The position numbers and the translations under genes were made by a program. The notes under the pieces were generated by a model that saw only the letters and a list, made by a program, of their open reading frames with translations, did no database searches and was not told the DNA's origin. From Deltaproteobacteria bacterium (GTDB lineage Bacteria; Bdellovibrionota; UBA2394), in contig JAFLCD010000010.1 in the NCBI GenBank assembly GCA_017302715.1, positions 1 through 64,000 of the forward strand: a stretch of DNA of 64,000 bases, in the 5' to 3' direction. Of this stretch, positions 41,131 through 46,244 are shown in pieces. Positions within the stretch are counted from its first letter, which is position 1. Every line of letters starts with the position of its first letter.

Positions 41131-41589
41131 CTAGCGAACAGCGCAGACGGCACGAACGGTCTGACAAGCAGTAGAGATTTTGCCGATGTCTGAATCTGAA
41201 GGATAAGAAATTTTGCTGATCGCTGCTTTTTCGCAGGCGATATTTCCTTCTCTTGTTATTACCTTGCAGTCTGCTGTGATTTGAGCCTTAGCGCGATTTA
41301 CAGCATTTACGATTTGGTCAGCGCTTGGATAACTTAAATAAGATAGATTCTGTTTCAGATGTTCAACATCGACAGTCATCGTGATGGTAAGTCCGTCTAA
41401 ATTATTTTGATTCTGACAGTTGTCTTGAAGCATTTCATCGATCATATCGAGTTTGTATTCGATGCGATCGAGTTGAGAATAGTTTCGCGTATCTTTTCGT
41501 TCCATATTACGTCTATTCGATTGTGCTGATAAATTTTGCGTACTCGCTAAAGTAGCAATCGCCGCGGTTAAAATAAAAAATACTTTCAT
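41131..41589 (-). CDS. small exported cysteine-containing protein
   Basis: 152 residues with a clear signal peptide (about 1-22, MKVFFILTAAIATLASTQNL). The mature part has a helical segment (LDRIEYKLDMIDEMLQ) and two short related blocks, YPSADQIVNAV and YPSDSDIGKIS, with about five Cys likely in disulphides. It follows the flagellin-like cluster on minus but is separated by a 9-bp-stem hairpin and about 110 bp, so it may be transcribed separately. Confidence 0.75.
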   Translation of the reverse strand: MKVFFILTAAIATLASTQNLSAQSNRRNMERKDTRNYSQLDRIEYKLDMIDEMLQDNCQNQNNLDGLTITMTVDVEHLKQNLSYLSYPSADQIVNAVNRAKAQITADCKVITREGNIACEKAAISKISYPSDSDIGKISTACQTVRAVCAVR

Positions 41590-41699: not shown

Positions 41700-42512
41700 T
41701 TATTGAGGAGGAGATGCCTGAACGATAAGACTTACTGAAGCCAATCGCAGCCGTAAATCATCTAGAGCGGATTTAAGATAGAAATAGGCTTCTTGAGATG
41801 CATCCAAAGTTCCTATGCTAATGTTGAATACACTTTTTTCTTCTAAAGAAACTTTTTCGCCATTCATTTCAAAAGATTTTTCTGACCACAAAAGAAGTTT
41901 TGATTTTTGCGAGGGGACTGCATTTACGCCCGTTTGATAAGAAATTGAATTGATAGCATCTACAGCTTCTTCAGCTGAGAATCGATTGAGAAAAATTCTT
42001 GCTCCGTTCAATTGAATCTCAGTGTTTTGATCGGAAGAAAGAAAAAATTCTTTTTTTGCAATTTGGCCAAAACTTCTGTCTGTAATCGGCTCTATTTTAT
42101 ACTTCATGGGGATTTCTTCTCCACCCATCGTCGACTGACTTAAGCTGGTAAACTCCAATCCGTCTTTTAAATAAAAGTATTGCTTTCGAAAGGAATCTTG
42201 AAAATCCGTTTGGTTTATAAGGCGTTTTATATCATCTAGAAAAAAAGATTTTTCTGAATTCAAATAATTTCGATCGGTAGCTCCCATGGTAGGGTTACTT
42301 GCTAGTTGAGCAAGCTCTCGTACTCGAACGAGATAATTGGTTATCATCTGAAGATTTTGGCTCGCTTCTATTCCAATGGCTCGAGCCTCATCGTTGCTGA
42401 AACGAACAAGTTCACTCTGTTCTGAAAAAGCATTTGAATTTTTAAAAAAAACAAAAAAAATAAATAAAATTAAAAAACTTTTTCTCATAAATAATTCTTC
42501 TTTCAAATTCAT
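41700..42512 (-). CDS. Sec-exported flagellin-like protein 2
   Basis: 270 residues from the ATG that overlaps the upstream stop (ATGA at 42509-42512); an ATG at 42488 (MRKSFLIL) is an alternative. A hydrophobic signal (about 11-28) precedes SEQSELVRFSNDEARAIGIE. Residues 50-105 match the flagellin N-terminal D1 helix: LQMITNYLVRVRELAQLAS, then ATDRNYLNSE and INQTDF. Residues 165-208 resemble the flagellin hook IN motif (IQLNGARIFL...AINSISYQTGVNA). The C-terminal helix (DASQEAYFYLKSALDDLRLR) matches the flagellin C-terminal D1. Both D0 ends are missing. Confidence 0.75.
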   Translation of the reverse strand: MNLKEELFMRKSFLILFIFFVFFKNSNAFSEQSELVRFSNDEARAIGIEASQNLQMITNYLVRVRELAQLASNPTMGATDRNYLNSEKSFFLDDIKRLINQTDFQDSFRKQYFYLKDGLEFTSLSQSTMGGEEIPMKYKIEPITDRSFGQIAKKEFFLSSDQNTEIQLNGARIFLNRFSAEEAVDAINSISYQTGVNAVPSQKSKLLLWSEKSFEMNGEKVSLEEKSVFNISIGTLDASQEAYFYLKSALDDLRLRLASVSLIVQASPPQ

Positions 42513-43681
42513 CGTGGAGGACAATTTCCTAAAATGGGAGTTATTTGACTACGATGCAAATGAGTTTGCATAATAGCTGCATCTAGTTGGGCTAATGCCC
42601 AACTAGCTTTTGTTTGCGTAGAAATTTCTGTCTTAAGAATATTTTGCTGGTTACGCTCTATTATTCGTTCTTCAGAGAGGTCAAAAAGAGACGAGTTTAT
42701 CTTCAACTTAAAAGGGCTTGAAGATCGGAGTTTAAATTTTCCAAAAAATGTTTGTTTTCCCGCATTGATTTTTCCACCAAATATCTTCGAGGCTTCAGGA
42801 GTGAGGAAGAAACTGATATTTCGTCCATCGGCAGCTGTCAGTAAAATATTTTCTGTCGATCCTATTGCTAAACTCGCCTTAACGGCTGTCGAGCTTGAAA
42901 TAAAATTAATAGCCGATATGAAGTTAGGCAAAGTACTAACGTTACCCGTGATAGATACTCCATTAATTTTGAATTCACCTGCTTTCAGTGATTGATTGGA
43001 ATTTCCAGTAAAGTTTAAATTCTTAAACTCCACTTCTGTAGGTCGTACCTCGCTGTAGACTTGAGTGAAGCTAGCTTGAGCATTAATACGCTTCGCAATA
43101 GCAATTGAGCTGACAAGATTTCCATCTACAGAAATCGTATCTTCGTTGGCTGTAGGTGCTTCAATAAGAATGTCGTTGAGCAAAAAATTTCCAAATGAGT
43201 AAGAATTATCTTTAGGCTCAATTGTAAGAAAAATTTCAGCAAGACTTCCCATAATGCTTAAATCGAAAGGTTCTATTCTATAATTAATCGGAACATTCAC
43301 TTGATCGATCGCTGAATGGCGTAAAGTTCTAAATTGAAGCCCGTCTTTAAAAAAAGCGTAAGTGTCGCCAAATGTATCTGTAAATGAAGCGCGTGTAATA
43401 AGTTCAAAAATCTCTTCATTTTTTTTGGCGTATGTAATTTGTAAAAATTGACGATCAGCCGTTCCCAAGGTGCTGTTGGCAGCTTGAATAGCGAGTTCTC
43501 TTTGATGGTTAAGGATTTCAGTTAAACGAATCAGGATCCGTTCCGCCTTTTCGCCAATAGCGTTGGCTTCTTGGCAGGTAAAGCGTAGTTCGGCTTGGGT
43601 TGCCGCTGAGGTTGCTTCACTTAAAGTTAGATTGATTAAGCAAAGGAACACAAAAATTTTGAGTTTAGAAATAAATTTCAT
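42509..43681 (-). CDS. Sec-exported flagellin-like protein 1
   Basis: 390 residues with signal peptide (about 1-26, KIFVFLCLINLTLSEATSA). Flagellin D1-like N-helix at 36-104: AERILIRLTEILNHQRELAI, then QAANSTLGTADRQFLQ and ELITRASF, closely paralleling RMRELAVQAANGT...DR of flagellins. Two hook-IN-like repeats at about 165-215 and 233-290 (AGEFKINGVSITGNVSTLPN, then LLTAADGRNISF). The C-terminal D1-like helix is QTKASWALAQLDAAIMQTHL. The canonical D0 ends and the type III export signal are absent. Lies between the FliD-like gene (10-bp gap) and its smaller homologue. Confidence 0.78.
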   Translation of the reverse strand: MKFISKLKIFVFLCLINLTLSEATSAATQAELRFTCQEANAIGEKAERILIRLTEILNHQRELAIQAANSTLGTADRQFLQITYAKKNEEIFELITRASFTDTFGDTYAFFKDGLQFRTLRHSAIDQVNVPINYRIEPFDLSIMGSLAEIFLTIEPKDNSYSFGNFLLNDILIEAPTANEDTISVDGNLVSSIAIAKRINAQASFTQVYSEVRPTEVEFKNLNFTGNSNQSLKAGEFKINGVSITGNVSTLPNFISAINFISSSTAVKASLAIGSTENILLTAADGRNISFFLTPEASKIFGGKINAGKQTFFGKFKLRSSSPFKLKINSSLFDLSEERIIERNQQNILKTEISTQTKASWALAQLDAAIMQTHLHRSQITPILGNCPPR

Positions 43682-43691
43682 AGATATCCTT

Positions 43692-45392
43692 TCAATGTGA
43701 GCTTTCTGACTGAAGTCTGTTTTCTATCTGAATGATTTGAGTATTAAGTCTGTAAATTCTAAGTGGAAGGCTGCCGTTCGATGGATCCACCATCTTAAGC
43801 AGTACGTTATCAAAGCCTTTTGCAAAACCTCTGTTGTCATTTTTGCCTTCAAAAAATATTCGAAGATCGTCATAGGATTCTGTTAAAATCAAATTAAGTT
43901 TTGCTTCATCTTTTAAACTGAGCAGTCCTCGTCTGTCGGAATCGGTAAAAATTCCTAATTCTGATAAAGATTTGATACGGCTATCATTCGAGTAAATATC
44001 CGTAACAGAAGTTGTAAGCTGCCATAGAATATCAACAAGAAGTGAATCTCCAGCCATTAAATTGGGTATATTTTTTTTCTCAACTTCGTAGCCAATTGTT
44101 TTCTGAATCCATGTGATGATTGAATTATATTTCTTAATCAAATCTTTTAATTTTGTGACTGCGCTTTGAGTGCCACTCTCAGTCACTGAAATGGTCTTTA
44201 AATCACCTGGATCTGCAGAGTGAAGTGTCAGTTTTACTCCTGGAATGAAATCAGAAATTTCATTGCTATCTCGATAAATGGAATTGCTGCCAACAATAAT
44301 TAAAGAATCTTGTCCTTGAGTTTGAACAGAAAAATTTGCAGCACTTAAATGAGTAAGCGTACTCAATTCAAATTGAAAATTCGGATGCCAAATGGAGTTG
44401 TCTGGATCTCGCTGGCCGCTACGTTTGTCAGTGATTATAAGCCGCGCCGACATATCCCCACCAGCGCCTGTATCGAACACAGTGGCTTGAATTTCTTTGG
44501 AAGACGAATTCAAAATTTCAGCAAAACCTAAGAGGCTCGTGCCTTTAGGGATATCAAAAACGTTTTTATGCCCGCGAATTTGGATCGTAAATTCGGCATC
44601 TGTCTCCGTGACACTTTCATTTACTCCTGAGAAGCGAGCTGCCCAGACTTCGTTTGTCGCCAATCGTTCTACACTTAGTGTAAAAATAGAATTCAGTGCT
44701 TTGGAATTCGCAGTGCCCATTACAACATTTGGATCAGAGCTCGATACCACCTTTGCTTTGAGATCATCTGTATTTAAAAATTGATATAAATTTCCTCTGA
44801 AATTTCCAAGCTGTTGATAAAGATCTGTTAAGATGGCTACTTGCGTAGCTAATTTCATTCGTAAAATTTCTAAATCTTTAGTGCTTTTTTGAGCGAGTGG
44901 AGAGGGTTGAAACGTATTTTTCAGTTCAATTTCGCTCAGATGAAGACTGATGACATAGTCGTCATCTTGATAGCCGGCCATACGTAATAGCTCATGAAAA
45001 ATGTGTTTAGAGAGTGGGCGATTGTCTCGAAGATAGATATCCCAACGCTCTTGAATAAGCCAAAGCTTGTCATCTTGGATGACGGAATCAATTTTCGAGC
45101 CGCCGTTATCTACGTCTTTATTTTTTTTATCGCTGGCTGAAACAACTTTAATTTTTTGAATCGTCAGTTGCTTGGTTAAAAGACTGAGATCCAAATTGAA
45201 TCGATTGATAATATTTTTACCTTCGGGTGTTGAAGAAAGATAATCGAGAACTTTCAATCCTGTTTCAATAAAAGTGCGGCGAATTTCATCTCCGCCGTTT
45301 CCAACGCCGTGTCCAGGGATTGGAGCGTCTTCTTGGGCAAAGATTGGACTCAAGCCTAAACTTAGAATGAGAATAAAAAATATTTTCTTCAT
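43692..45392 (-). CDS. Sec-exported FliD-like (filament cap) protein with extra N-terminal domain
   Basis: 566 residues from the ATG overlapping the regulator stop (ATGA). Signal peptide 1-19. Residues 25-160 form a domain with GVGNGGDEIRR, DNGGSKID and HELLRMAGYQ. From about 180, FliD features follow: QLGNFRGNLYQFLNTDDLKA then KVVSSSDPNVVMGTA, EISDFIPGVKLTLHSADPG (about 378), KLKDLIKKYNSIITWI (414-429), MAGDSLL (446), SLSELGIFTD and SLKDEAKLNLIL, and a final helix RIYRLNTQIIQIENRL. It stops there, lacking the D0 tail of true FliD. Confidence 0.8.
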   Translation of the reverse strand: MKKIFFILILSLGLSPIFAQEDAPIPGHGVGNGGDEIRRTFIETGLKVLDYLSSTPEGKNIINRFNLDLSLLTKQLTIQKIKVVSASDKKNKDVDNGGSKIDSVIQDDKLWLIQERWDIYLRDNRPLSKHIFHELLRMAGYQDDDYVISLHLSEIELKNTFQPSPLAQKSTKDLEILRMKLATQVAILTDLYQQLGNFRGNLYQFLNTDDLKAKVVSSSDPNVVMGTANSKALNSIFTLSVERLATNEVWAARFSGVNESVTETDAEFTIQIRGHKNVFDIPKGTSLLGFAEILNSSSKEIQATVFDTGAGGDMSARLIITDKRSGQRDPDNSIWHPNFQFELSTLTHLSAANFSVQTQGQDSLIIVGSNSIYRDSNEISDFIPGVKLTLHSADPGDLKTISVTESGTQSAVTKLKDLIKKYNSIITWIQKTIGYEVEKKNIPNLMAGDSLLVDILWQLTTSVTDIYSNDSRIKSLSELGIFTDSDRRGLLSLKDEAKLNLILTESYDDLRIFFEGKNDNRGFAKGFDNVLLKMVDPSNGSLPLRIYRLNTQIIQIENRLQSESSH

Positions 45393-46168
45393 TTTTGAGC
45401 TGCCTTCTTTTCTGTAGAAAAATTGAGAGGAAAAATTTGTATGCAAAGTTTGAAAACTTCTTCGGCTTCTTTTGTTTCAGCGATCTTGCAAATTTTCTCA
45501 CGAAAATCTCTTACAAGCTGACGAATACGATTGAGATTTTTTGGATTCATTCGAAAAGTGAGGGAGGTGAAATCTCGAGCTTGAAGTGGATGATTTTCAA
45601 GTGATTTTTGAGCGAGTTCCAAAGATTCAAAATGGCTTCTTAAAATACTTTCGTCTGAAATCCCGTCAGAAGAGTGATAGCTTTTGCCAGTTGCCTTCCA
45701 TTGAAGTTTAGAAATCTTTTCAGCCAGTCCTAATCGTTGAAGTCTTTCGAGCGAACGTAAAACTTCGCCTTCGGAGATATGGAGAGATGTGGCTATTTTT
45801 CGAGGTATTCCTTTTAAGCGCTCTACTTCTAAGAGAGATAAGATCGCGAAGTGCTGCCAGCTTGAGATAAGAGCAAACTCATCGGCTTTGAGAATTTGAT
45901 ATTTAAGCGGCAAATGAGAAGTTTCATTATTGAAAATATTTTCTATAAAGCGGCTTTGGTTTTCGTCCCGCAGTCTTTCAATAACTCGATTGGCGAGTTT
46001 GGTAGAAACGGCTCTCTTTCCTCGGATAATTTCTGAAACAGCAGAAGGAGTCAGTCCGATTCGTTTTGAAAAGGCCCTGAGAGAGTAGCGAGTATTCTTA
46101 TTTTTTGCTGAAGAAAGTGCCGTTTGAAGCAAACGTTGAAACTGATGCTGATTTATCTTCCCCTTCAT
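45389..46168 (-). CDS. TIGR02147-family transcriptional regulator
   Basis: 259 residues: N-terminal helix-turn-helix (RAFSKRIGLTPSAVSEIIRG, about 27-46), then the TIGR02147/DUF4423 region with a second winged-helix segment IATSLHISEGEVLRSLERLQ and the closing LTFRMNPKNLNRIRQLVRDF then REKICKIAE, a hallmark of the family. Known mainly from Bdellovibrio-like bacteria and Fibrobacteres. The gene is coupled by ATGA to the FliD-like gene, so it probably controls the cluster, perhaps through the upstream palindrome. Confidence 0.88.
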   Translation of the reverse strand: MKGKINQHQFQRLLQTALSSAKNKNTRYSLRAFSKRIGLTPSAVSEIIRGKRAVSTKLANRVIERLRDENQSRFIENIFNNETSHLPLKYQILKADEFALISSWQHFAILSLLEVERLKGIPRKIATSLHISEGEVLRSLERLQRLGLAEKISKLQWKATGKSYHSSDGISDESILRSHFESLELAQKSLENHPLQARDFTSLTFRMNPKNLNRIRQLVRDFREKICKIAETKEAEEVFKLCIQIFPLNFSTEKKAAQK

Positions 46169-46208: not shown

Positions 46209-46244
46209 TTTTTGGAACATTTTGTTCCAAAAATAAATGGAACA
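46209..46244. promoter_or_regulatory. palindromic operator upstream of the TIGR02147 regulator
   Basis: TTTTTGGAAC, 5-nt centre, GTTCCAAAAA (46209-46233): 10-bp perfect arms. A further half-site GGAACA is at 46239-46244. It sits 41 bp upstream of the regulator ATG. No T run follows on minus, so an operator fits better than a terminator. Confidence 0.55.

Follow-up and report, generated by a model that had tools for sequence, protein, structure and literature searches.

The 64,000-nucleotide stretch analyzed here (the window; positions 1 to 64,000 of the forward strand of contig JAFLCD010000010.1, assembly GCA_017302715.1) comes from a Deltaproteobacteria bacterium placed by GTDB in UBA2394 within the Bdellovibrionota, a member of a little-known family that is kin to predatory bacteria. 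Four tightly coupled genes on its minus strand encode, from upstream to downstream, a TIGR02147/DUF4423 transcriptional regulator (45389..46168), a FliD-like protein of 566 amino acids (aa) (43692..45392), and two flagellin-like proteins, which we refer to as flagellin body 1 (42509..43681, 390 aa, labeled P2) and flagellin body 2 (41700..42512, short, 262 to 270 aa depending on the start, labeled P1). A preliminary description of the sequence had listed these four genes, and both the inventory and the coordinates are confirmed. The FliD-like start is best placed at ATG 45392 instead of TTG 45446, because the resulting ATGA overlap with the regulator stop couples the two genes. Flagellin-like gene 1 begins 10 bp past the FliD-like stop, and gene 2 starts at ATG 42512, again in an ATGA overlap, or at 42488. 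No flagellar gene was detected among the 20 of 38 window open reading frames (ORFs) of at least 220 aa that were scanned or in the two flanking proteins, and to that extent the operon stands apart from flagellar genes, as had been proposed. We compared five genomes of the family (G000 to G004, with G000 holding the window). The identical four-gene order, at about 35% protein identity and likewise with intact ORFs and ATGA couplings, is present in G002, which represents a second genus, and the arrangement thus recurs elsewhere in the Bdellovibrionota.

The FliD-like protein is a fusion. Its first ~165 residues are not FliD; after a signal sequence, residues ~23 to 165 form a domain of about 143 aa that starts with GNGGD and contains an HE motif (44898..45326), followed by a FliD D1-D2-D3 body (43695..44897). 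Pfam matches are clear for FliD_C (1.7e-32) and present for FliD_N (6.3e-7), and the protein is 44% identical to the canonical FliD of the same genome over residues 199 to 579 of the 584-aa ORF. The AlphaFold2 model (mean predicted local distance difference test score [pLDDT], 89.0) has FliD chains at the top of its Foldseek matches (9m67, E 6.4e-24). VIA aligns residues 184 to 549 to residues 43 to 411 of Escherichia coli FliD (5h5v, Z 27.0), and its widest alignment runs from 160 to 566 against 19 to 428 of a solved FliD (Z 26.4). The model therefore predicts the D1, D2, and D3 folds of a FliD cap. The match to canonical FliD stops at residue 441 of 492, and the terminal D0 helices are lacking: the C-terminal one is absent, and the N-terminus is occupied by another domain. 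An ordinary fliD is kept elsewhere in G000, in apparent flagellar operons with fliS, flgK, flgL, and fliC-like genes (named mostly from sequence). A search of named genomes with the FliD-like query gave no match.

For the flagellin-like proteins, sequence profiles are less forthcoming. NCBIfam flagellin models match both (8.5e-16 and 1.1e-8) at scores far under the full-length cut-offs, and Pfam returns nothing for body 1 and only subthreshold matches for body 2. Profile searches thus uphold the earlier FliD and flagellin names, with the flagellin part falling short of full-length standards. The fold of body 1 is settled by its predicted structure (AlphaFold2, mean pLDDT 87.4), whose top two Foldseek matches are Helicobacter pylori flagellins, followed by one Campylobacter flagellin and five entries described as bacterial cell-surface flagellin. 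Nearly all of the 50 VIA matches listed are flagellins. Residues 22 to 390 align to H. pylori FlaA 52 to 453 (Z 22.0, 335 residues), and residues 31 to 390 align to Salmonella FliC 62 to 435 (1ucu, Z 13.3, 149 residues); a profile alignment to the canonical FliC of the same genome spans residues 68 to 444 of 511. Because the model of body 1 aligns to FliC 62 to 435 only, D0 is, on this model, absent at both ends. The assignment of body 2, which also lacks D0 and contains no cysteine, rests on sequence and orthology. Chance resemblance to flagellin and FliD was considered and rejected on the grounds of structure and orthology.

D0 is the polymerization domain of flagellin, and flagellin and FliD are taken to require D0 at their termini and passage through the export channel of the flagellum. 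The three proteins downstream of the regulator carry hydrophobic N-termini with cleavage-like motifs (the motifs read by eye), with peak 9-residue Kyte-Doolittle values of 2.8 to 3.6 versus at most 1.12 in 18 family flagellins without such signals. Calls based on hydrophobicity and cleavage-like motifs support, by computation, an exit from the cytoplasm through Sec-type signals and not through the type III apparatus. The preliminary description had inferred that D0 was replaced by a Sec signal and that the folds were redeployed outside the cytoplasm. The signal-like N-termini, the loss of D0, and the retention of the folds agree with the redeployment; D0 is missing from both ends of flagellin body 1 and from the C-terminus of the FliD-like protein, whose N-terminus is occupied by the signal sequence and the GNGGD/HE domain.

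In the mature flagellin body 1, Cys36 (codon 43574-43576) and Cys387 (codon 42521-42523) lie at opposite ends of the chain. As the model places helices at residues 36 to 67 and 356 to 386, the two cysteines flank the end where D0 had been. Across the family, cysteines where the first D1 helix begins and near the C-terminus occur in P2, both G002 bodies (G002a and G002b), and the G003 body, that is, in four of seven exported bodies; neither is present in P1 or in the flagellin portion of the G001 fusion, and the G004 protein has the C-terminal cysteine only. Cysteine is absent from 16 of 18 ordinary family flagellins. The pair alone is not significant across seven proteins (Fisher p about 0.14), and we infer that a terminal disulfide may clamp the flagellin helices in place of D0 in most members.

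The regulator, a helix-turn-helix protein with DUF4423, is firmly assigned (NCBIfam TIGR02147, E 5.8e-35, 121.1 bits against a cut-off of 50; Pfam DUF4423, 3e-37). Upstream of it lies a putative operator (46213..46244, minus strand) of three TGTTCCA half-sites at 46244-46238, 46229-46223 (inverted), and 46219-46213, the core palindrome having arms of 11 bp. The arrangement reads TGTTCCA-N8-TGGAACA-AAA-TGTTCCA in the window and TGTTCCC-N6-GGGAACA-CTT-TGTTCCC upstream of the orthologous regulator in G002, which preserves the architecture. G000 and G002 each contain a single exact copy of the core, KGGAACANNNTGTTCCM, located at this operon, and none is present in G001, G003, or G004. One occurrence per genome suggests that the operon is self-regulated and private in the two genera, marked by the putative operator, and agrees with the dedicated regulator proposed earlier. 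Sites with one mismatch occur at control level (8 versus 7 per strand across the five genomes), and hence only exact sites are claimed. More broadly, palindromes with arms of at least 9 bp lie upstream of 10% of 50 regulators, compared with 1.2% in mononucleotide shuffles, which make a weak null. Most of the other regulators listed, that of G004 included, have no palindrome with arms of at least 7 bp, and the G001 palindrome differs. Matches to sigma-70-like promoters within the operon region are at shuffle level (12 versus 11.9).

The N-terminal domain of the FliD-like protein leads to a wider pattern. The GNGGD/HE domain was found in 71 of 290 phylum genomes sampled, using a five-sequence profile whose seeds were chosen beside TIGR02147-type regulators, a mild bias. 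We examined 46 loci (the window, five earlier regions, and 40 drawn largely from the highest-ranking matches) and obtained the domain ORF in 45; in the remaining one, L164, it was displaced by a longer ORF that overlaps it. TIGR02147-type regulators, recognized by a custom profile that began with five such proteins and was then enlarged, stand directly upstream or divergent in 43 of the 45 loci: on the same strand within 100 bp upstream in 37 and divergent within 500 bp in 6. In one further locus the regulator is farther upstream, and in the last, where the contig ends, none was seen. In total, 47 such regulators occur in the domain loci (341 kb, window length uncounted) versus none in 331 kb of partly overlapping control loci. 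Searches of the literature under the names TIGR02147 and DUF4423 found no description of this pair of regulator and GNGGD/HE exoprotein. The C-terminal payload is FliD in the window and G002, flagellin in G001 and G004, ankyrin repeats in L150, DUF4360 in L136, L137, and L148, and an outer membrane protein barrel in L171; many further C-terminal parts have no Pfam match. At five loci (L145, L146, L147, L155, and L161), tandem GNGGD-type genes lie behind one regulator, with one gene of each pair giving a partial or weaker match.

The HE motif is invariant in 25 aligned domains and occurs in 44 of the 48 domain regions, none of which has the HExxH zinc motif. A zincin metallopeptidase identity, hinted at by the motif alone, was accordingly rejected: HHalign of the 25 domains against a two-sequence profile of HExxH proteins encoded beside TIGR02147-type regulators (L105 and one sequence from G044) gave 1% probability, and the domain has no significant match in Pfam or PDB profile searches. 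VIA scarcely probed the domain, as FliD rows filled the match list. Separately, secreted HExxH metallopeptidase-like proteins are encoded beside three of the four other DUF4423 regulators of G000, as the next gene (L102, 4458-5567), the second gene downstream (L103, 1045-2934), or divergently (L105, 5846-6814). A DUF4423 protein of Bdellovibrio bacteriovorus, Bd3700, is tabulated among the proteins that the predator upregulates while it grows in prey (PMC12546842); any tie to the present operon would be by family only.

Exported flagellin bodies were found in all five family genomes, seven in all: two each in the window and G002, one standing alone in G003, and one each in G001 and G004, two sister genera in which the flagellin body is joined to a preceding GNGGD domain and the operon lacks FliD. 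G001 is the public metagenome-assembled genome UBA2394, placed by NCBI in the Bdellovibrionota, Bacteriovoracia. Exported FliD bodies occur in four of the five genomes, full size in G000 and G002 and as D2-D3 mini-FliDs in G000 (L075), G001 (L072), and G004 (L073); none was found in G003. The G000 mini-FliD gene (L075, 1969-2733) sits just behind a sigma-54-type activator gene and ahead of a superoxide-dismutase-like gene, the neighbors being named from sequence. Among 285 other phylum genomes no exported flagellin body was seen when up to six candidates per genome were scored (E 1e-12); matches reached at most 54.6 bits, mainly over the first D1 stretch of flagellin-sized ORFs, and weaker or crowded-out relatives could be missed because of the limit of six. 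A search of 59 genomes in which all candidates were scored found a single match outside the family, an ordinary flagellin of G043.

An unrooted tree that also contains 13 canonical flagellins of the family gathers all seven exported bodies into one group (support 94/99), although two rows are long-branched and six of the seven exported bodies have unusual composition. Within the group, P2 pairs with G002b and P1 with G002a, so the two-flagellin operon probably predates the divergence of the two genera. Differences between G000 and G002 at codon positions 1/2/3 are 0.53/0.41/0.68 for the FliD-like gene, 0.53/0.37/0.65 for flagellin body 1, and 0.47/0.35/0.64 for body 2, a pattern that fits purifying selection on all three exported genes; canonical FliC has changed less (0.34/0.26/0.57). 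Rapid divergence and the short second flagellin might suggest ordinary flagellin and FliD duplicates in decay, their hydrophobic N-termini due to chance. We consider this scarcely credible and reject a pseudogene or relic reading, given the intact ATGA-coupled ORFs in two genera, the shared operator, the codon pattern, and the gathering of signal-bearing proteins in one tree group.

The RxRELA face of D1 contacts neighboring subunits in filaments. Mean identities for the N-terminal D1, D2, and C-terminal D1 regions are 0.27, 0.27, and 0.23 in six exported members (the short P1 excluded), versus 0.49, 0.43, and 0.45 in 11 canonical flagellins (two incomplete rows excluded). The absence of D0, together with a D1 no better conserved than D2 over all exported members, argues against an ordinary filament. 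The filament system proposed in the preliminary description is not demonstrated in its polymerization aspect, and the sheath component, adhesin, or decoy suggested there would each be no more than a candidate role. Assembly of D0-less subunits into a novel Sec-dependent filament, or into a surface structure tipped by a cap, would account for a cap and two subunit types sharing one operon in two genera, but the lost D0, the relaxed constraint on D1, the existence in two genera of operons that lack FliD and have the flagellin body fused to a preceding GNGGD domain, and the want of an evident assembly gene in the operon make it very improbable.

The reading we favor, tentatively and at somewhat short of even confidence, is that the exported proteins are nonpolymerizing and most likely act in recognition or binding at the envelope or surface. 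We prefer it because D0 is gone, the constraint on D1 is relaxed, and the operator appears private, and because the GNGGD/HE domain of the FliD-like protein otherwise bears, where payloads are identified, nonflagellar ones (the G001 and G004 fusions aside). Under this proposal, a TIGR02147 regulator would bind its own promoter and control this operon alone, and the operon would produce nonpolymerizing copies of the FliD and flagellin bodies routed through Sec and not the flagellum. The GNGGD/HE domain would be the standard exported partner of such regulators, here with a FliD body attached on its C-terminal side. Binding surfaces in the periplasm or on the cell could then be provided by FliD D2-D3 and the outer domain of flagellin, and in most members a terminal disulfide may take over the clamping of the flagellin helices from D0.

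Several observations weigh against this proposal. The cysteine pair is suggestive, with four bodies having both, two neither, and one only the C-terminal residue, and the signal of the G004 mini-FliD is weak. No regulator, GNGGD domain, or exported FliD was found to accompany the G003 flagellin body. The D1 motif RxRELAIQA.N is partly retained in the exported bodies, making contact with flagellin possible, and in both pairs of orthologs D1 is slightly above D2 (0.39 and 0.40 versus 0.34 and 0.35), which means that the relaxation of D1 is partial.

These last two points lend themselves to the main rival, a sheath or filament-partner role, in which the exported bodies would be periplasmic or sheath-lumen factors that attach to the cell's own filament within a membranous sheath or capture stray periplasmic flagellin. 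The flagella of Bdellovibrio and Bacteriovorax are sheathed (PMC7175336). Flagellin and FliD bodies share one operon, the ordinary fliD is kept in apparent flagellar operons, and the genome has 15 Flagellin_N matches. Such a role is nevertheless rather unlikely in our estimate, since over six exported members D1 is no better kept than D2 (27% and 23% versus 27%), by contrast with the 11 canonical flagellins (49% and 45% versus 43%), and since no flagellar gene is among the scanned window neighbors and the exact operator core is nowhere else in the genome. A more speculative picture, to which we give still less weight, is a family-specific Sec-exported cap-and-subunit complex of D0-less FliD and disulfide-clamped D0-less flagellins, at the surface or in the sheath interior, with its own regulator and private operator. 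Tree end branches are longer for the exported bodies (0.8 to 2.2) than for canonical flagellins (0.09 to 0.77), and such fast evolution of D0-less exported proteins could suit decoys that soak up flagellum-binding phages or other flagellar partners. Release from filament constraint would also explain the fast evolution, and nothing seen points to phages, no search having been made in defense libraries; we regard decoys as quite improbable. A PHROGs search gave one weak match.

A recognition or binding role would have a known parallel. Among the structural matches to body 1 are 2zbi, 3k8v, and 3k8w, which we take to be p5 of Sphingomonas sp. A1, a flagellin homologue that retains D0. The mode of action we envisage would resemble that of this surface flagellin receptor and not that of a flagellum. 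The Sphingomonas homologue is reported to serve as a receptor for alginate, at the cell surface or in the outer membrane, and the available portion of that source mentions no FliD partner, regulator, or GNGGD domain (PMC8286568). Compared with ordinary FliC, the exported bodies share fold and sequence, their best matches outside the exported set being the family's own FliC, but they differ in the D0 missing from both ends, the Sec-type signal, the terminal cysteines of four of the seven, and the lack of a flagellar operon. The FliD-like protein likewise shares the D1-D2-D3 fold of the FliD cap (HAP2), whereas its N-terminal end is replaced by a signal sequence and the GNGGD/HE domain and its C-terminal D0 is absent. 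Relative to the regulator and GNGGD/HE exoprotein pair seen across the phylum, the regulator, the coupling, and the N-terminal domain are alike, and what differs is the payload, FliD or flagellin here and ankyrin, DUF4360, an outer membrane protein barrel, or no assignment elsewhere. Among the literature matches listed for Sec-exported or nonflagellar flagellin and FliD, which are largely open access, nothing alike appeared in titles or abstract openings.

These results suggest that flagellin and FliD bodies shifted jointly to Sec export, shed D0, and have been maintained by selection, and they point to an undescribed role for such bodies outside the flagellum. The operon would constitute a natural test of what a flagellin body and FliD D2-D3 are capable of without a flagellum. 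The analysis also brings out a phylum-wide pairing of a TIGR02147-type regulator with a GNGGD/HE exoprotein whose C-terminal payload can change.

Beyond the four genes, a small secreted-looking protein of 152 aa with no Pfam family above cut-off is encoded on the same strand 110 bp downstream of the operon (41131-41589). Elsewhere in G000 (2.39 Mb), a 261-aa protein (L087, 6299-7084) matches Flagellin_N 67-138 (E 1.3e-6) and has no D0 and no evident signal sequence. Flagellin-type genes are numerous for a genome of this size: ten of the 15 Flagellin_N matches (L001 to L008 and L080 to L096) lie in open frames of 500 to 661 aa. Several of the genes are outside flagellar operons, and counted among the 15 are an FlgL-like gene, those of the window, and some doubtful cases. 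In UBA2394, flagellin profiles give 21 matches, some of which are pieces of one gene.

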